Source of the DNA: an uncultured Bacteroidales bacterium
Lineage (GTDB): Bacteria; Bacteroidota; Bacteroidia; Bacteroidales; Paludibacteraceae
Length of the DNA stretch: 38,601 nucleotides
Reading direction: 5' to 3'
Assembly: GCA_900317885.1 (NCBI GenBank)
Contig: ONIM01000008.1
Location: 1-38,601 of the forward strand
Shown here: piece by piece, positions 3,438 through 30,768 of the stretch
How positions within the stretch are numbered: position 1 is the first letter of the stretch
Layout of the letters: the number at the start of each line of letters is the position of its first letter
Notes under the pieces: generated by a model
The model's database searches: none
What the model saw: only the letters and a program-made list of their open reading frames with translations
What the model was told of the DNA's origin: nothing
Position numbers and translations under genes: made by a program

Positions 3438-4337
3438 TTAGAACCAGATACCGAGACCGATGACGCCGTTGAGTTTCTGGTTATACAGTTTCTCGTCTCC
3501 GGAACCCTTGATGAAGACATTCTCTTTGTTGATGCCGTCAGGGTTCAGCGAAGCCTGTGCGAAGAGGTCGAAGGTTACGTGATCCAGCTCCCACTCCTCG
3601 TTGATTTTCAGGCTGATGTTTGTTACGGCGAACTTCCCGTTGCCGTACAGATCACTCTGCCACGGCGACATTCCTACCACGCCGCCTAAGGTCAGACCGA
3701 TACCCTCAAAGGTGTAGTCGTAACCTACCTCAAAATAACTACTCCAAGCGCGTTTGAGGTCGCCGTCCTCGTTCTCTACGAAGTCATTGCCGGCTACCGT
3801 GGTGTACCAATTAATATATGCACCGGCTTTGTCTCCGAAGAAATGACCAAAGTTATATCCTGCCCAAACTTCCGTAGTGGAAGTAGTATTCACGAATTGA
3901 TCACCGTTCTCGTCCAACTCAATCAGTTTGGCATCTTTCTGCCAGGAGAAGAAGTTCGATCCGTCGCAGTAATAATAGTGGTTAAAACCTACTGTTAGAC
4001 CATAAGTGCTGAAAGACAGTACGACATCCAACTCCGGCATGAAGCGGGTGTTGGGATCGATCTCGATTCCATCTACATCCGTGTAGGTCGGCAGACCCTT
4101 GCGGAAACCCCAGTCCGACGCACCGATGTTTGCCCAAACGCCTGCGCGCAAAGACGTGTGCTCGCCGTCGTAACCGATCTCCAAATCCGGCTGAAAACTC
4201 AGACCGCCGTTATACTGACCACGCCAGATATAACTACTGACAATCTCAGCACCGGCGTCGTAAGCAAACTCTACTTCTGCTTTCGCAGTCATTACTGCCG
4301 CTACCATCGCGGCACACAAAAGTGTAAATTTTTTCAT
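3438..4337 (-). CDS. Outer-membrane beta-barrel protein, TorF/Gcw_chp-like
   Basis: 299 residues with a clear signal peptide (cleavage expected after MTAKA, about residue 20), followed by alternating aromatic/polar strands typical of an outer-membrane barrel and a C-terminal aromatic residue (GIGLGIWF). The region VSSYIWRGQYNGGLSFQPDL and the following GVWANIGASDWGF resemble the putative porin family called TorF/Gcw_chp; I recognise that family by pattern only. It starts 22 bases after the stop of a related barrel gene (4360-5241), sharing the order signal peptide, YIWRG/YLWRG, NIG.(S/T)DWGF. The two are probably ancient tandem duplicates. It is followed 3 bases later by apbE. Transport substrate unknown. 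Confidence 0.8.
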   Translation of the reverse strand: MKKFTLLCAAMVAAVMTAKAEVEFAYDAGAEIVSSYIWRGQYNGGLSFQPDLEIGYDGEHTSLRAGVWANIGASDWGFRKGLPTYTDVDGIEIDPNTRFMPELDVVLSFSTYGLTVGFNHYYYCDGSNFFSWQKDAKLIELDENGDQFVNTTSTTEVWAGYNFGHFFGDKAGAYINWYTTVAGNDFVENEDGDLKRAWSSYFEVGYDYTFEGIGLTLGGVVGMSPWQSDLYGNGKFAVTNISLKINEEWELDHVTFDLFAQASLNPDGINKENVFIKGSGDEKLYNQKLNGVIGLGIWF

Positions 4338-15151: not shown

Positions 15152-17014
15152 ATGGCAAAAACAAAACCATACTTGGATAACGAAGGCAACGCTTTGCCTT
15201 ATCCATGGCTCATCAATTTCATGCTGATGCTAGTCGGCGGGTCGCAGACATTGCGTCTGCGTTTCTGGAGTCGCAAGCCCCGCCACACAGCAGAGAAGAC
15301 TCTACGAGACATACTCACTATTTCCCGCGACACCGTTTATGGCAAAGAGCACCATTTCGACCGCATCCTGAGCGCCACGAGTGCTGAGGACCTGTTTCGG
15401 TTGTACAGGCTCTATGTGCCGGTGAATAACTCGTTTGAGACGCTGCGGCCGTACGTAGAGCGGCATAAGAACGGCGAGGAGAACGTGCTCTTTCCCGGCA
15501 AGCCGGATATGTACGCAACGACATCGGGTACGACCTCCGAACCCAAATGGATTCCCATGACGCATAAGTACCTCAAGGACGTGTACGGCAAGATGAGCCA
15601 TATATGGACCTGGAACTTTGTCAAGCACCGGAGTCGGATCTTCGGCGGCCGGATCTTCACGACGGTCGGCAAAGAGTGCGAGGGCTACGCGCCGGACGGG
15701 ACGCTCTTCGGCTCCGTGAGCGGTGTGTTGGTGCGCGACATCCCGCAGATTATCAAGAAGCACTACACGGCCCCTGCGTCGGTGATGGCGATTCCGGATT
15801 ACGGAACACGCAACTACGTCCTAATGCGGTTAGCGTTGCAGTACCGCGACGTGACGCTCTGGGCGACGGCGAACCCCGCAACGATCTTAGAACTGCTGCG
15901 GGCGCTCAATGAGAACACCGAGCAGATGATCAACGACATCGAGAAAGGCACCATCAGCGAAGATGTGGATATCCCGTACGAGATCCGTTCGGAGTTAGAC
16001 GCGTATATCGCTCCATATCCTGAGAGAGCCGCAGAACTGCGGCAGATTCTCGCCGAGAAGGGACACTTGTACCCGAAGGACTTCTGGCCCTGGCTCCAGT
16101 ACCTCAGTACCTGGAAATGCGGCAACACGAAGATCTACATGGACAAGTACATGGACCAGTTTAATTGGGACAAGACCTTCTACCAGGAGCTCGGCTATAT
16201 AGCCACCGAGTGCCGGTTCGGTTTCTCGTTGGACGATACCAACGAGTCCGTCCTTTTCCCGCAGTTCCACTACTACGAGTTCGTCGAGGAGAGCGAGTTG
16301 GACAGCCCGCATAAGCACTTCCTGCAGATCGACGAGTTGGAGCTCGGCAAGCGTTACTGCGCGTACGTGACGACCTACTCGGGACTCTTCCGGTATAACA
16401 TGAACGACCTCGTGGAGGTCGGCGGGTTCTACAAGAGCACCCCGACCGTACACATGATCTCGAAAGTCAACGGCATCGTCTCCATGACGGGTGAGAAGTT
16501 GTACGAACCGCAGTTCATGGACGCCGTACACCAGGCCGAGGAAGAGACGGGAATCAAGACGAAGTTCTTCGTCGGTTTCGCTGAGGTGGAGGAGAGTAAG
16601 TACCATTTCTACTACGAGTTCCAGGACGAGAAGATCAACCAGGAGCAGGCAGAGGCGTTTACCAAAGTGGTGGACGAGAAGCTGCAGCACATCAACGTGG
16701 AGTACGAATCCAAGCGGCAGTCTTTCCGTCTCCATGCTCCCGAGACCCATATACTCCTTTCTAACGCGTACGCGCGATTTAAGGCAGCATGCCTCAAGGA
16801 CGGATTTAGGGACGGGCAGTTCAAGTTCAACTTGCTCATGCAGGACGAGAAACGGCGTAGCAAGTTCAACCTCATCCAACGCATGGAGAGCCGGTTTGAC
16901 AAGATTAGTCAGAACATTATTGATAGAGCAAACAAGATAGATGATCGACAAAAAGAACGTGCTAAACGGCGTGCAAACCGTCGTACTGGATCTCGACGGG
17001 ACGATGTACGATAA
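15152..17014 (+). CDS. GH3-family acyl-adenylating enzyme
   Basis: 620 residues; Bacteroidota GH3 homologues are, as I recall, nearer 500, so this is long. The family (plant GH3/JAR1, firefly-luciferase fold) adenylates carboxylic acids and commonly joins them to amino acids. Seen: YATTSGTTSEPKWIPMT (phosphate-binding S/T-G-T-T motif), then TTYSGLFRYNMNDLVEVGG and SKVNGIVSMTGEKLYE, which match the adenylate-binding and hinge motifs. No signal peptide. The C-terminal last ~25 residues (Lys/Arg-rich) are encoded in the 74-base overlap with the next gene. First of four overlapping genes with a HAD phosphatase, acyltransferase and permease. Substrate unknown; bacterial roles are poorly defined. 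Confidence 0.88.
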   Translation: MAKTKPYLDNEGNALPYPWLINFMLMLVGGSQTLRLRFWSRKPRHTAEKTLRDILTISRDTVYGKEHHFDRILSATSAEDLFRLYRLYVPVNNSFETLRPYVERHKNGEENVLFPGKPDMYATTSGTTSEPKWIPMTHKYLKDVYGKMSHIWTWNFVKHRSRIFGGRIFTTVGKECEGYAPDGTLFGSVSGVLVRDIPQIIKKHYTAPASVMAIPDYGTRNYVLMRLALQYRDVTLWATANPATILELLRALNENTEQMINDIEKGTISEDVDIPYEIRSELDAYIAPYPERAAELRQILAEKGHLYPKDFWPWLQYLSTWKCGNTKIYMDKYMDQFNWDKTFYQELGYIATECRFGFSLDDTNESVLFPQFHYYEFVEESELDSPHKHFLQIDELELGKRYCAYVTTYSGLFRYNMNDLVEVGGFYKSTPTVHMISKVNGIVSMTGEKLYEPQFMDAVHQAEEETGIKTKFFVGFAEVEESKYHFYYEFQDEKINQEQAEAFTKVVDEKLQHINVEYESKRQSFRLHAPETHILLSNAYARFKAACLKDGFRDGQFKFNLLMQDEKRRSKFNLIQRMESRFDKISQNIIDRANKIDDRQKERAKRRANRRTGSRRDDVR

Positions 17015-19344: not shown

Positions 19345-19376
19345 TTTGCACACACGAAATAAATTTCGTACCTTTG
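19345..19376 (+). promoter_or_regulatory. Bacteroidota-type promoter for the steroid-type redox operon
   Basis: TTTGCACAC (TTG at 19346-19348), 20-base spacer, TACCTTTG (19369-19376). It gives the three-gene operon its own start, about 40 bases before the first ATG. Confidence 0.85.
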
Positions 19377-19417: not shown

Positions 19418-20236
19418 ATGAATATTTATACGATTGACTTCTTTTACGACCTGCTGTTTATTATGTTTATAATCGGCCTGGTTGTATTTGTGTCCCTGTA
19501 TTACGTGGACGCCGGTTATGGTAAGATGCGTTCGGAGAAATGGGGCCCGGCGATGAATAATAAAGTAGGGTGGTTCCTCATGGAGTGTCCGGTGTTCTTC
19601 GTCGTATGGTATGAGTATTTCAAAGCGATGGGCAGCGCTGATCCGGTGATTGCCGAGGCAGCGAAGAGTGCGCCTTACTGGCTCTTCTTCCTCTTCTTTG
19701 AGTTCCATTATTTCCAGCGTTCGTTCATCTTCCCGTTCCTGCTGAAGGGCAAGAGCAAGATGCCGGTAGCAATCATGATTCTGTCGGTCGTATGGAATCT
19801 TATCAATGGTTATATCCAGGGTTTCTGGTTGTTCCATCTGGCGCCGAAAGATCCGTTCTATGCGCACCTCTACTCGACGTCTTGGCTGACCGACCCCCGC
19901 TTCATCATCGGTACGGTTATCTTCTTTGTCGGATGGATTATTAACATGCATTCCGACTACGTGATCCGCCATCTGCGCAAGCCCGGTGACACGAACCATT
20001 ACCTGCCCAAGAAAGGGCTCTACAAGTACGTCACGAGTGCCAATTACCTCGGTGAGATCACCGAATGGCTCGGCTTTGCGATCCTCACTTGGTCGCTCGC
20101 AGGACTGCTCTTCTTCTGGTTCTCGTGCTGCAACCTCGTGCCGCGCAGCAATGCTATCTACAAGAAGTACGAGGAGGAGTTCCCCGATGAGTTCGACCGC
20201 AAGAAACTGAAACGCATCATTCCGTTTATTTACTAA
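19418..20236 (+). CDS. 3-oxo-5-alpha-steroid 4-dehydrogenase (steroid 5-alpha-reductase) family membrane protein
   Basis: 272 residues, about seven membrane segments. The similarity to vertebrate SRD5A1/SRD5A2, recalled from memory, runs along the whole protein: AGYGKM near 32-37, GWFLMECPVF with Glu56 (the position of catalytic Glu57 in SRD5A2), HYFQRSFIFPFL with Tyr98 (position of Tyr91), NGYIQGFWL, WLTDPRFIIG, NMHSDYVIRHLRKPGDT (NADPH site), GLYKYVTSANYLGEITEW and the C-terminal RIIPFIY. The expected reaction is NADPH-dependent saturation of a 3-oxo-delta4 steroid to the 5-alpha product. Its stop and the next ATG overlap (TAATG). Sterol-reductase activity on bile acids or steroid hormones is inferred from family and neighbours. 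Confidence 0.9.
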   Translation: MNIYTIDFFYDLLFIMFIIGLVVFVSLYYVDAGYGKMRSEKWGPAMNNKVGWFLMECPVFFVVWYEYFKAMGSADPVIAEAAKSAPYWLFFLFFEFHYFQRSFIFPFLLKGKSKMPVAIMILSVVWNLINGYIQGFWLFHLAPKDPFYAHLYSTSWLTDPRFIIGTVIFFVGWIINMHSDYVIRHLRKPGDTNHYLPKKGLYKYVTSANYLGEITEWLGFAILTWSLAGLLFFWFSCCNLVPRSNAIYKKYEEEFPDEFDRKKLKRIIPFIY

Positions 20237-21543
20237 TGAACAATAAACTCTTTACACCCTATCAATTAGGGCCGATTACGCTGCGGAACCGCATCATCCG
20301 TTCCGCGGCATTCGAAAATATGGCGCGTCATAATGCGCCGACCAAGGAGCTTCAGGACTATCACGTCTCCGTAGCCCGCGGCGGAGTAGGCATGACTACC
20401 GTCGCTTACTGCGCGGTGGACCTCTCCGGCGTCTCTTTTGACGGCCAGCTCTATGTCCGCGAGGAGATCATCCCTCAGATGAGGCAGATGACCGACGCCA
20501 TCCACGCCGAGGGCGCGAAAGCATCCATCCAACTCGGACATTGCGGTAACATGACGCATTTCTACACCTGCCACTGCATGCCTGTTTCTGCGGATACATG
20601 GTTCAACCTCTATAGCCCGACGATCCATCGGAGACTAAAGGTCTCGGAGATCAAGGGGCTTGTCAAGAAGTTCGGTGAGGCGGTCGATTGGGCTCGTACC
20701 TGCGGCTTTGACTGCGTGGAGATCCACGCCGGCCACGCCTACCTCATCTCGCAGTTCCTCGCGCCGCGTACGAACCACCGCCACGATGAGTACGGCGGTT
20801 CGTTTGAGAACCGTGTACGCTTCCTCAACGAAGTACTCGACGAAGTGATGATCCATGCCAAGGACGACATGGCGGTCGTGGTAAAGACGAACATGTGGGA
20901 CGATTGTTGGAAAGGTGTATCTATTGAGGAGGGTATTCGGATTGCCAAGGAGATTGCCAAACATAAGGTGCACGGTATTGTCCTCTCCGGCGGTACCGTC
21001 AGTCGTTCGCCGATGACCATCCTCTCCGGCGCAATGCCCTACAAGACCCTTGCGCATTACATGCCGATGAAGTCCTTCTGGTGGCTCAAAGCAGCGCTCA
21101 ATATACCCGGTGTGCACCAGATCATGCTGCCTACTTCGCCTTTCAAAGAACTCTATTTCATGGACAAAGCGAAGCTTTTCCAACAAGCATTAGAAGAAAC
21201 TCTCCTCCCCTCCATGAGGAGGTCGGGTGGGGCTCCGACCCTCATTTATGTAGGCGGCGTGCAATCCGGCGATAACTGCTACCAGATTATGGACGAAGGC
21301 TTCGAACTCTTCCAGATAGCACACGTGCTCATCAAGGATCCGGAGTTCGTGCACCATGTGGAGGCGAATCCGCATTACCACGCAGGCTGCGGAAGGTCGA
21401 ATTACTGCGTAGGACGTATGTACACGCTGGATATGAAATGCCACGAGTGCGTAGAGCGCGATGGCGAGGTTATCCCTGAGCGTATTCAGAAAGAGATTGC
21501 TAAATTAGAGAAGGATGCTGAGCTTAGTAACGGGCGCAAGTAG
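20236..21543 (+). CDS. Old Yellow Enzyme-family NADH:flavin oxidoreductase (candidate 3-oxo steroid ene-reductase)
   Basis: 435 residues. FMN TIM-barrel features: YQLGPITLRNRIIRSAA at the N-terminus, QLGHCGNM, CVEIHAGHAYLISQFLAPRTNHRHDEYGG (quoted here as HAGHAYLISQFLAPRTN) and SFENRVRFLNEV, plus GGVQSGDN. It is related to the N-terminal half of BaiCD/2,4-dienoyl-CoA reductases but has no C-terminal FAD/NAD domain. Four cysteines near the end (HAGCGRSNYC, then MKCHEC) resemble an iron-sulphur ligand set with altered spacing. Residues about 322-334 come from a palindromic element. Expected to reduce a C=C bond next to a ketone, possibly giving 5-beta or other ring products; its partners are a 5-alpha-reductase and an SDR. 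Confidence 0.88.
   Translation: MNNKLFTPYQLGPITLRNRIIRSAAFENMARHNAPTKELQDYHVSVARGGVGMTTVAYCAVDLSGVSFDGQLYVREEIIPQMRQMTDAIHAEGAKASIQLGHCGNMTHFYTCHCMPVSADTWFNLYSPTIHRRLKVSEIKGLVKKFGEAVDWARTCGFDCVEIHAGHAYLISQFLAPRTNHRHDEYGGSFENRVRFLNEVLDEVMIHAKDDMAVVVKTNMWDDCWKGVSIEEGIRIAKEIAKHKVHGIVLSGGTVSRSPMTILSGAMPYKTLAHYMPMKSFWWLKAALNIPGVHQIMLPTSPFKELYFMDKAKLFQQALEETLLPSMRRSGGAPTLIYVGGVQSGDNCYQIMDEGFELFQIAHVLIKDPEFVHHVEANPHYHAGCGRSNYCVGRMYTLDMKCHECVERDGEVIPERIQKEIAKLEKDAELSNGRK
21201..21235. repeat. Palindromic element, type B, inside the ene-reductase gene
   Basis: Arms CTCCTC (21202-21207) and GAGGAG (21216-21221), tail GTCGGGTGGGGCTC. Encodes T-L-L-P-S-M-R-R-S-G-G-A-P between the last helix and the GGVQSGD strand. 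Confidence 0.9.
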
Positions 21544-22318
21544 CGGTATAGGTCTGCAGTACGCTACCGCCTTGGCGCGGGATTATCACTCTGACCTCCT
21601 TCTGGTGAGCAACCAGCAGGAGGAGTTGGATTGCGTGGCGGCTGACTTGGCGGAAAAGTACGGCGTGAAAACCACTGCGCATTTTGCCGACCTCTCTCTC
21701 CCCGACGCTGCAGAGCAACTCTTCGCATGGACCAAAGAGAACAATTTTACCGTCGATGTGCTCATCAATAACGCGGGAGTGTTTTTCTTCAACCCCTATA
21801 TCGAGACCTCGATGAAGCGCATTGAGTTGATGCTCCAACTGCACGTCATGACCGTCGCCAAACTCACCCGCCTCTTCGCCGAAGATATGGCTAAAAGATC
21901 TGTCAGCGATAGCGGTCTTCCCATGAAAGGCTACATCCTCAATATGAGTTCGATGTCGGCATGGATGGCGATGCCGGGAATCCAGACCTATAATGCGTCA
22001 AAAGCGTTTATCTATAACTTCTCGAAGTCCCTCTGGTACGAGTTCAAACCACTCGGCGTCGGCATCACTGTCATGGCGCCCGGAGCCGTGGATACAGCCC
22101 TCTTCGGACTCTCGCCCAAGTTGCGCAAGTTAGCGGTGAACCTGACGGTCTCTATTCCTCCGGAGAAACTTGTTAAACGCGCCTTGAAGAAACTCTTTAA
22201 GAACAAGAAAGCGGACACCCCGGGTTTCTTGAATTGGCTTGCTACGCCGCTCTTGAAACACACGCCCGATTGGATGCTCTTCCTTGCGATGAAGTACGTC
22301 GGTAAGTACCAGAAATAG
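21515..22318 (+). CDS. Short-chain dehydrogenase/reductase (hydroxysteroid-dehydrogenase-like)
   Basis: 267 residues, classical SDR fold. Cofactor motif TGASSGIG (6-13), NNAG (85-88) and the catalytic triad Ser146, Tyr159 and Lys163 in NMSSMSAW and YNASK. The C-terminal lid after the catalytic residues resembles 17-beta-HSD/very-long-chain 3-oxoacyl reductases. It begins 29 bases inside the ene-reductase gene, so it belongs to the same operon. The likely role is interconversion of a 3-keto and a 3-hydroxy group on the product of the two reductases; the stereochemistry (3-alpha or 3-beta) cannot be read from sequence. Residues about 128-137 may be a repeat-derived insertion just before the catalytic strand. 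Confidence 0.9.
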   Translation: MLSLVTGASSGIGLQYATALARDYHSDLLLVSNQQEELDCVAADLAEKYGVKTTAHFADLSLPDAAEQLFAWTKENNFTVDVLINNAGVFFFNPYIETSMKRIELMLQLHVMTVAKLTRLFAEDMAKRSVSDSGLPMKGYILNMSSMSAWMAMPGIQTYNASKAFIYNFSKSLWYEFKPLGVGITVMAPGAVDTALFGLSPKLRKLAVNLTVSIPPEKLVKRALKKLFKNKKADTPGFLNWLATPLLKHTPDWMLFLAMKYVGKYQK

Positions 22319-22416: not shown

Positions 22417-23868
22417 ATGTATCGGCAAATAATCTTTTCAGCAAGGCACTTAAGCCTGTTTATCTTATTGATTTCGTGCGCGTTACATGCGTACGCAGGG
22501 GATTCTATAACGGTCTCTGTTGCGGACCTTCAGGCGCTCGTTCAGCGTGTGGAGAGGCTCGAACAAGCCCAGCAACAGACGGTAGAGAAAAAAGACACTC
22601 TATCCCCCAAAATTGGTAAAACACGACGTTTTACTATCGGCGGTTACGGTGAGATTACCGCCAAACATTGTTTCTACTCCAACAACTATCTTCGTTATGG
22701 CAAGAACCCCGAGCGGTTTGCCAACGATCATTACGGCGAGTTTGATCTGCCGCACGTGGTGATTTACATGGGCTATGACTTCGGTCATGGATGGTCGGTA
22801 GGCACGGAGATCGAGTTCGAGCACGGCGGTACGGAGAGTGCCATCGAGATCGAAGAGGAAGAAGGCGGCGAGTACGAGAGTGAGATCGAGCGCGGTGGTG
22901 AAGTGGCATTAGAGCAGTTTTGGCTGCAGAAAGCCTTCAACCGCTACGCGATCATCCGGGCAGGTATGCAGGTCATCCCCGTCGGCGGTCTGAACGCCCA
23001 CCACGAATCGACGGAGTACTTCGGCGTGTACCGTAACGAAGGCGATTTCACCATCATCCCGAGTACCTGGCATGAGGTGGCGCTGACGTTCATGGGAAGC
23101 ACCAAGAACGGTTTTCATTACCAGGCGATGTTCCTTCCCGGGCTCGATAGCGATCGTTTTAACCGAAAGAATTGGGTCAAACCCGGAGCTGGCAGTCCGT
23201 ATGAGTTTAAGATTGCGAACGTCTTTGCCGGTGCAGCGAGGGTGGATTATACGGGCGTGAAAGGACTTCGTCTCTCCCTCAGCGGGTACTGCGGTAACTC
23301 CTTCCGCAATACCCTCTCAAAGTCCAACGCCGAGTTGGACGAGAGTGCGTACAAGGACGTCAAGGGTACGGTCTCCATCGGCGCGTTTGATTTCCAATAC
23401 AAGGACTACGGTCTCATCCTCCGCGGTAGTTTCACCTACGGTCATCTGTCCGATGCGGCGGCGATCACGCAATACAATATCGCAATGCGCAAAGGCTCCG
23501 TTTCCTCCAAGCAATGGGTTGCGTCCGATGCACTTGCAGCAGGTATAGAAGCAGGTTACGACTTCTTCTCGCTCAACAATAAACTCAAAGAGAAGAACCA
23601 ATCCTTCTACCTCTTCGCGCGGTACGACTACTACGACTCGATGTTCCGCTACGACGGCAAACCGACGGATATGTACTCCTGGTGCGGTAGGCACCGTGCG
23701 GCGGTGGGTATCAACTACTTCCCTATCAAGCAGATCGGCGTGAAGGCGGAGTTCTCCTACGGTATATTGAAAAAAGGAACGCGCGCGGACGGTACGCGCG
23801 GGAAGCTCTACAACGACGAACCGCAGATTGCCGTAGGAATCGTCTATGCAGGATTTTATCAACTATAA
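22417..23868 (+). CDS. Outer-membrane porin-like protein with N-terminal coiled coil
   Basis: 483 residues. Signal peptide (hydrophobic LSLFILLISCALHAYA), then a short coiled-coil segment VADLQALVQRVERLEQAQQQ as in trimeric porins, then a barrel-like body with many Tyr/Gly strands (FTIGGYGEITAKH, VVIYMGYDFGHGWSVGTEIE) and a terminal aromatic strand ending in YAGFYQL. The Glu-rich loop at about 145-167 could bind cations. It is followed 22 bases later by an imelysin gene; iron- or metal-related uptake is the usual inference for imelysin neighbours. Specific substrate unknown. Confidence 0.83.
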   Translation: MYRQIIFSARHLSLFILLISCALHAYAGDSITVSVADLQALVQRVERLEQAQQQTVEKKDTLSPKIGKTRRFTIGGYGEITAKHCFYSNNYLRYGKNPERFANDHYGEFDLPHVVIYMGYDFGHGWSVGTEIEFEHGGTESAIEIEEEEGGEYESEIERGGEVALEQFWLQKAFNRYAIIRAGMQVIPVGGLNAHHESTEYFGVYRNEGDFTIIPSTWHEVALTFMGSTKNGFHYQAMFLPGLDSDRFNRKNWVKPGAGSPYEFKIANVFAGAARVDYTGVKGLRLSLSGYCGNSFRNTLSKSNAELDESAYKDVKGTVSIGAFDFQYKDYGLILRGSFTYGHLSDAAAITQYNIAMRKGSVSSKQWVASDALAAGIEAGYDFFSLNNKLKEKNQSFYLFARYDYYDSMFRYDGKPTDMYSWCGRHRAAVGINYFPIKQIGVKAEFSYGILKKGTRADGTRGKLYNDEPQIAVGIVYAGFYQL

Positions 23869-29389: not shown

Positions 29390-29795
29390 AAGCGTATAAA
29401 TCACGTACTAAGGTGGAGGAGATATGCGCGTACTCGGGGCGCGTATAAAGGATCACGGTCTCAATCTCGCCGATCTGCTTGTTCGCCTCCGCCATGTTTC
29501 GTTCGTACTCAAAATCGCCGATGCAACGCATCCCGCGAAGGATGAACTTCGCATCTTGCTCTTTCGCGAAATCTACCGTCAGGCAGTCGTAGATAGCCAC
29601 CTTCACGCGCGGTTCGTCTGCAAAAATCTTACGGATCGCCTCCTCGCGCTCACGGATCGGGAAGGTCTCTTTCTTCGTGCTGTTTCGGCCTATACCGATG
29701 ATGATCTCATCAAATAACTCCAGACCACGCTTCACGATATCATAGTGGCCTACTGTAAAGGGATCAAACGATCCCGGAAATATTGCTCTTTTCAT
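29346..29795 (-). CDS. coaD: Phosphopantetheine adenylyltransferase
   Basis: Fourth step of coenzyme A synthesis: ATP plus 4'-phosphopantetheine to dephospho-CoA. 149 residues, close to the usual 155-160. Motifs: AIFPGSFDPFTVGHYDIV (T/HxGH), RGMRCIGDFEYE and the C-terminal YAHISSTLVRDLYAYGKDVS. It overlaps the upstream acyltransferase gene by 32 bases and the downstream protease gene by 44, showing strong packing of this operon. Confidence 0.96.
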   Translation of the reverse strand: MKRAIFPGSFDPFTVGHYDIVKRGLELFDEIIIGIGRNSTKKETFPIREREEAIRKIFADEPRVKVAIYDCLTVDFAKEQDAKFILRGMRCIGDFEYERNMAEANKQIGEIETVILYTRPEYAHISSTLVRDLYAYGKDVSDFVPNTLR

Positions 29796-30768
29796 AATTT
29801 ATCTTCGGATTATTATACATTTCATAAAGTTTAGTTCTCAAAAACTCCTCGTCCTTATTGGGGATGTCAATCATCGCCAGGCGGCTCTCGATGTACGCAT
29901 CAAAATCCGTGCCACGTTCGTATATCTCGTAGCCCCGATGAATATGCCGGTCGATGATGTCGCACACGTGTTGCAGCTGGTCGTGGATCGGAGCCTCGCG
30001 GTACTCCGGATGCGCCGCTAATAGCGCGTCGATCTCCGGATTGATGCTTTGCGTCAAGCGATACACCACGTGTCCTTTGTATCCACGAATACCTGTCTTC
30101 ATGGACAATACATCGTCTTTCGCGCGTTTTTTCCATTTCGGATTATCCCGTTTGAGCTGCATCTCTGCCGCCTTCAGGTAGTCGCACGGGTCGTACTCGT
30201 AGGTGATACTCACGGGGCAGATATTGAGCGCCTTGACGTTCTGAAAGAAGTCCTCGTCGCCCAGCGTCAGCATGTGCAGCACCGACGCTTGCGTCAGGTC
30301 GTTACTGTCTTTGGCGCGGCCCTCACGTTGAGCCAGCCAGATAGATTTGCCTTCCTCGCGGAGCGAACGGATATACGCCGAGAGCTGCTTCGAGTTCTCC
30401 AACTGCGCATGAGCCCCCGCACCGCGTTTGACCACAAAACAACGGTTGAAACGCACCAACACTTCGATCCATTTATAAGCAAACAAATTATTGCCGATGC
30501 CGATGAACGGACGGATGAAGTATTTGCATCTTAGCAGCAACGACAGCCATGCCGAGTCCAAGACGATGTCGCGGTGGTTCGTCATGAAGAAGGCCCCGTG
30601 TTTGATATCTTTCTCTATCTGTTTGCGGTCGCCCATGTAATCTAACTTGATACCTTCCGTCGTCCGCTTTGCCCAGATCCACAAGAGCGGAAAAGCAAAC
30701 AGAAAATCGCAGATGGTCAGCAACCATCCCACGCGATAAGCTCTAATATCTCTAAATTTATCTTTCAT
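29764..30768 (-). CDS. Glycerophosphate acyltransferase-like protein
   Basis: 334 residues. Motif I MTNHRDIVLD (NH...D with a five-residue gap) and motif III IWLAQREGRAKDSND (REGR in place of FPEGTR) place it in the PlsB/PlsC-type acyltransferases. A hydrophobic segment near the N-terminus (VGWLLTICDFLFAFPLLWIW) suggests membrane association. Distinct from the second acyltransferase at 17549. It overlaps the YigZ-like gene by 11 bases at its start. The acceptor is unknown; phospholipid synthesis is the default guess. Confidence 0.8.
   Translation of the reverse strand: MKDKFRDIRAYRVGWLLTICDFLFAFPLLWIWAKRTTEGIKLDYMGDRKQIEKDIKHGAFFMTNHRDIVLDSAWLSLLLRCKYFIRPFIGIGNNLFAYKWIEVLVRFNRCFVVKRGAGAHAQLENSKQLSAYIRSLREEGKSIWLAQREGRAKDSNDLTQASVLHMLTLGDEDFFQNVKALNICPVSITYEYDPCDYLKAAEMQLKRDNPKWKKRAKDDVLSMKTGIRGYKGHVVYRLTQSINPEIDALLAAHPEYREAPIHDQLQHVCDIIDRHIHRGYEIYERGTDFDAYIESRLAMIDIPNKDEEFLRTKLYEMYNNPKINYEKSNISGIV

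Follow-up and report, generated by a model that had tools for sequence, protein, structure and literature searches.

A probable steroid A-ring operon of the Bacteroidales and its two alternative third genes

Do three overlapping genes in a Paludibacteraceae genome encode the pathway by which other Bacteroidota make isoalloLCA, and would they bring that pathway to a new lineage? A cluster of genes for a 5-alpha-reductase (5AR), a 5-beta-reductase (5BR) and a 3-beta-hydroxysteroid dehydrogenase (3-beta-HSDH) involved in isoalloLCA formation has been described in P. merdae, O. laneus and B. dorei (PMC10382948) and is also mentioned in PMC12697870 and PMC11271093. The product is reported to inhibit Gram-positive pathogens and to promote regulatory T cells (PMC10382948, PMC11271093). 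The stretch of DNA analysed here (the window, 38,601 nucleotides) carries what appears from its sequence to be a real operon of this known kind, but not one that corresponds gene for gene to that of Parabacteroides. It is probably a variant of a steroid A-ring operon that is conserved in the Bacteroidales.

The initial annotation described three closely packed, overlapping genes behind a promoter of their own, and this description holds (Table 1). The 5AR and OYE genes share a single base (TAATG), and the OYE and short-chain dehydrogenase (SDR) genes overlap by 29 bases in different frames. The promoter ends 41 bases ahead of the 5AR start codon and conforms to TTTG/TAnnTTTG, which we take to be the Bacteroidales promoter consensus. 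With a spacer of 19–21 bases, the pattern occurs four times in the window, compared with a mean of 0.09 in 100 shuffled versions, none of which reached four.

Table 1. Features of the three-gene operon in the window.
Feature	Positions	Strand	Description
Promoter, Bacteroidales-type	19345-19376	+	TTTG-N20-TAccTTTG; pattern search against shuffles
5AR gene (first of three)	19418-20236	+	272 aa, ATG start; membrane 5-alpha-reductase, SRD5A family
OYE-family flavoenzyme gene (P0002)	20236-21543	+	435 aa, ATG start; candidate 3-oxo-5-beta-steroid dehydrogenase / Delta4 5-beta-reductase
Type A short-chain dehydrogenase gene (P0003)	21515-22318	+	267 aa, ATG start; candidate 3-hydroxysteroid dehydrogenase

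The next gene starts at 22417, 98 bases past the SDR gene; a TAccTTTG box can be seen by eye ahead of it, at a place where the full promoter pattern has no match. In a Pfam scan of 20 open reading frames of the window, three had no match at E ≤ 1e-5. By Pfam, the neighbours are unrelated to the operon: upstream there are GH3, HAD hydrolase, acyltransferase and EamA proteins, and downstream a protein without assignment, an imelysin, a di-haem oxidoreductase and a cytochrome c assembly protein. Long reading frames without a Pfam match at this threshold lie at 22417-23868, directly 3' of the operon and before the imelysin gene, and at 29764-30768 and 3438-4337. Searches of the window for tRNAs and Rfam families gave no matches. 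The GH3-family protein (15152-17014; Pfam GH3, GH3_M and GH3_C) is encoded four genes upstream of 5AR, and by eye the same neighbourhood is seen in the locus of a genus sibling, L040. GH3 proteins can couple carboxylic acids with amino acids, and one could therefore ask whether this one has a connection with steroid acids.

The three gene families originally assigned are confirmed by Pfam scores above the respective cut-offs. The 5AR scores 139.3 bits with Steroid_dh (PF02544; cut-off 22.6). Among solved structures, it matches a bacterial SRD5A homologue (PDB 7c83; 180.5 bits, E = 4.3e-52) and human SRD5A2 (PDB 7bw1; 137.1 bits, E = 7.5e-39); a weak match is to a very-long-chain enoyl-CoA reductase. 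In the alignment to 7bw1, its E56 and Y98 correspond to E57 and Y91 of SRD5A2, for which a role in polarising the C3 carbonyl has been proposed; activity is lowered in the E57Q mutant and essentially abolished in Y91F (PMC7591894). Both residues are invariant in 43 of 43 aligned 5AR sequences. By its Pfam score and these two equivalents, the window protein is a member of the SRD5A family. Membership does not fix the substrate, since residues of the steroid pocket are reported to differ within the family (PMC7591894). A control search with PF02544 returned matches only in Caulobacter, Synechococcus and Lactococcus, and none in a named member of the Bacteroidota.

The OYE-type protein scores 181.9 bits with Oxidored_FMN (cut-off 27). 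Its confidently predicted structure (mean pLDDT 92.7) consists of one OYE barrel with an extended C-terminus, and the top PDB matches of the model are Chloroflexus CaOYE and 2-naphthoyl-CoA reductase. In 50 of 50 sequences there is no variation at H164, H167 and Y169, which we take to be functional H/H/Y residues, or at C385, C391 and C402 in the C-terminal extension. The cysteines of residues 385–402 possibly form a metal or iron-sulfur site and may be compared with the Fe-S motif of four Cys in 2,4-dienoyl-CoA reductase.

The SDR scores 116.7 bits with adh_short (cut-off 26.6) and has both short-chain dehydrogenase motifs, TGxxxGxG and Ser-Tyr-Lys; S146, Y159 and K163 are conserved without exception (44 of 44 sequences). 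Its model (mean pLDDT 89.8) matched at least 1991 SDR-like chains. Among the 50 matches listed, the top query TM-score (0.80) belongs to a 7-beta-HSDH (5fyd/5gt9; 25–26% identity), which ranks tenth by E-value, and the best E-value belongs to a Sphingobium SDR, uncharacterised by its title. The 7-beta-HSDH match hints weakly at a steroid substrate. The 25 NCBIfam matches listed, of 203, are all generic and below cut-off, which counts against a steroid reading.

How widespread is the operon? At the level of the order, at least 67 of the 247 genomes drawn have a 5AR match at E ≤ 0.001, at least 31 of them at E ≤ 1e-70; at the level of the window's family, the match is found in 21 of 61. Gene order was read in the best 80 of 520 relatives in terms of similarity to a putatively Odoribacteraceae 5AR, where an OYE gene lies behind 5AR in 73 of 80 and an SDR of the window's kind (type A) occurs in 40 of 80. 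A second set of 60 loci includes 49 with a 5AR of at least 45% identity, with OYE behind it in 37 and a type A SDR in 24, and 11 with a 5AR below 45%, with OYE in none and type A in none; the counts in the two sets are not independent, because contig ends cut some loci and some contigs appear to be shared by both. The 12 of 49 loci at or above 45% that lack OYE in the fetched stretch, some of them cut by contig ends, count against the main reading.

In a quick 5AR tree of 134 rows (SH-aLRT support in brackets), the window protein pairs with that of L040 (99). The pair is joined first by two genomes from another family (85) and then by another genus sibling (98), within a 23-row group of the window's own family and Paludibacteraceae records (99). 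This lies in a 56-row group (98) that includes four Parabacteroides, 18 Bacteroidaceae (Bacteroides and Phocaeicola) and one Odoribacter-titled metagenome-assembled genome. The 5ARs of Butyricimonas and Sanguibacteroides fall outside it but inside a 123-row group (100) from which distant 5ARs are excluded. The nearest rows in the OYE and SDR trees are largely the same. Within the best 80 of 520, the closest named 5ARs are Paludibacteraceae-titled (L139, L148 and L154; 64% identity), as is the closest named OYE (genome of L150; 85%); in two other Paludibacteraceae-titled records, L137 and L141, the 5AR is just 53–55% alike.

Two loci of another family, L060 and L061, have all three genes at 72–79% identity to those of the window, and their 5AR is closer to the window's than that of any fetched same-family genome outside its genus. 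L061 has an extra gene between OYE and SDR. The tie of all three genes to another family suggests that the operon may have been transferred.

The proposal that the window places the pathway in a new lineage has to be given up. Many families of the Bacteroidales carry the operon, the cluster had already been reported for isoalloLCA producers, and in a 2018 study of a chicken set 5AR genes were reported from the Bacteroidetes isolates, with the exception of two Odoribacter and P. distasonis (PMC6069880). None of the 12 papers listed by a literature search on the subject contained the word Paludibacteraceae; this does not prove absence.

The surprise lies in the third enzyme. Judged by sequence comparison, the third position of the operon is taken by one of two non-orthologous SDRs. 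In 14 of 17 examined loci without type A, another SDR lies behind OYE that is 21–27% identical to type A. Type A proteins in operons score 202–436 bits with an A profile and at most 76 with a B profile; type B proteins score 182–515 bits with the B profile, which was built from 10 of the loci scored, and at most 67 with the A profile. A stray SDR in L069 reaches 91 bits with the B profile. The window has the order 5AR-OYE-A. No type B SDR was found in its genome (88.8% complete), where a Parabacteroides type B query gave two matches, both 25% identical.

Among the best 80 of 520, the architectures are 5AR-OYE-A-B (26), 5AR-OYE-B (23), 5AR-OYE-A (13), 5AR-OYE (9), 5AR alone (5), 5AR-B (2), 5AR-OYE-B-A (1) and 5AR with OYE in two pieces and B (1). 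Within these, B without A is found in three of four Parabacteroides-titled loci (the fourth has 5AR alone) and in 18 of 19 titled Bacteroides or Phocaeicola (the other has A-B), and A-B in three of three Barnesiella-titled loci. The seven Alistipes-titled loci have A-B (2), A (2), 5AR-OYE (1) or 5AR alone (2). Loci of Odoribacter, Sanguibacteroides and Butyricimonas (L118, L121 and L122) have A followed by B, their type A SDR being 40–43% identical to the window's, and 11 further loci of one family have A-B (9) or B (2). The second set of 60 comprises 5AR alone (23), 5AR-OYE-A (12), A-B (11), 5AR-OYE (8), B (3), one more B with a stray SDR upstream, and A-A (2). Two tandem type A SDRs lie behind OYE in L040 (3570-4418 and 2765-3547; identity to the window's SDR about 77% and 52%) and in L049 (72% and 54%). 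In Bacteroides faecichinchillae and Bacteroides fragilis S82 (L127 and L134), the OYE gene is in two pieces and adjoins a full-length 5AR and a type B SDR.

The window SDR is therefore not an orthologue of the Parabacteroides enzyme, since Parabacteroides loci carry type B and the window type A only, and the suggestion that the third gene matches the Parabacteroides 3-beta-HSDH fails, the two types being 21–27% identical. A simple rule would be that type B is the 3-beta-HSDH and type A a 3-alpha-HSDH, which we keep as no more than a hypothesis. In the table of a review, 3-beta-HSDH is listed for O. laneus, Odoribacteraceae, P. distasonis and P. merdae, and 5-alpha-reductase without 3-beta-HSDH for B. 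thetaiotaomicron, P. goldsteinii and A. onderdonkii (PMC12692668). Neither SDR type alone explains this table, because Bacteroides loci carry B and Alistipes loci are mixed. A bolder model, which we think rather unlikely, is that the operon is modular at C3: types A and B would set opposite 3-hydroxyls, the four-gene form would both epimerise and flatten its substrate, and A-only and B-only forms would give different products, so that the window would make allo (3-alpha) and not isoallo (3-beta) forms, with foregut versions acting on plant or dietary steroids. No mention of two SDR types was found in the accessible parts of the literature on the cluster, a scope that excludes the 2021 primary papers, and no priority is claimed. 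The swap turns the product of the window's operon into a testable question. Genome-based prediction of the isomer that a gut species makes would depend on telling apart two non-orthologous SDRs, a distinction that family-level annotation hides.

Substrates, direction and C3 stereochemistry we infer as follows. The SDR would interconvert the 3-hydroxy and 3-oxo forms of the substrate, and the OYE-type flavoenzyme the 3-oxo-5-beta and 3-oxo-Delta4 forms. The membrane 5AR would then use NADPH to reduce the 3-oxo-Delta4 form at its alpha face, giving the flat 3-oxo-5-alpha form; the window's SDR or another would reduce this form at C3. Overall, the cis A/B ring junction would become trans, or a Delta4-3-ketosteroid would be reduced.

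For bile acids as substrate speak the published conversions by relatives, which are of bile acids (PMC10382948, PMC12692668), and an order-wide link to the CBAH (bile-salt-hydrolase) family: among the matches listed, CBAH-family matches (E ≤ 2e-28) occur in 17 of 31 genomes with a 5AR (E ≤ 1e-70) versus 20 of 216 without, at thresholds of our choosing, with the two genome draws taken as identical and kinship uncorrected. Both observations argue against a steroid operon that in nature acts mainly on other compounds, such as plant sterols from the diet, stenones derived from cholesterol or steroid hormones of the host. That alternative, which we consider somewhat unlikely, draws on the finding that the CBAH family has no match in the window's genome or in that of a sibling, G021 (100% complete), and on five of the best 80 of 520 loci with titles naming rumen, reticulum or abomasum (L157, L166, L181, L185 and L192). 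All five have OYE and a type A SDR, at sites where bile is unexpected. Because of these two findings, bile acids need not be the sole substrate.

SRD5A members are reported to have evolved recognition of different steroid or lipid substrates (PMC7591894), and the candidate SDR has no assigned specificity. The operon could thus belong to a pathway for enones of non-steroid lipids or isoprenoids in which the SRD5A and OYE folds are reused, the more so as OYE enzymes are promiscuous. Such a pathway seems very improbable to us, however, as the 5AR group holds genera with reported bile-acid 5AR activity and the counterparts of E57 and Y91 are present in 43 of 43 sequences.

The preferred reading, a conserved steroid A-ring operon, can be set beside several known systems. 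The window 5AR is like 7c83 and SRD5A2 in family and in its catalytic Glu and Tyr, but its pocket differs from that of SRD5A2, with W126 in place of F118 and L122 in place of R114 (alignment read by eye). BaiP and BaiJ of Firmicutes are bile acid 5-alpha-reductases that carry out the same reaction; however, they are FAD-dependent oxidoreductases, unlike the membrane-associated enzymes of Bacteroidetes (PMC9645264). BaiCD of bile-acid-dehydroxylating Clostridium shares the OYE domain and is the best NCBIfam match of the window OYE, but an identification with BaiCD was rejected on the score, 171.3 bits against a cut-off of 825 (NF041087). The match spans just the first 255 of 642 profile positions, and the three conserved C-terminal cysteines set the window protein apart.

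The closest system is the isoalloLCA cluster, compared at genus level, with congeners in Parabacteroides, Odoribacter and Phocaeicola/Bacteroides standing in for P. merdae, O. laneus and B. dorei. The proposed match to this cluster stands in part. The window has an SRD5A-family membrane 5AR with the catalytic Glu and Tyr, adjoining an NADH:flavin oxidoreductase in the same order, and its 5AR groups with those of the producing genera. The match does not extend to the SDR, which is not of the Parabacteroides type: Parabacteroides and Bacteroides congeners carry type B, and those in Odoribacter and Butyricimonas carry both A and B, sharing with the window the one type that it has.
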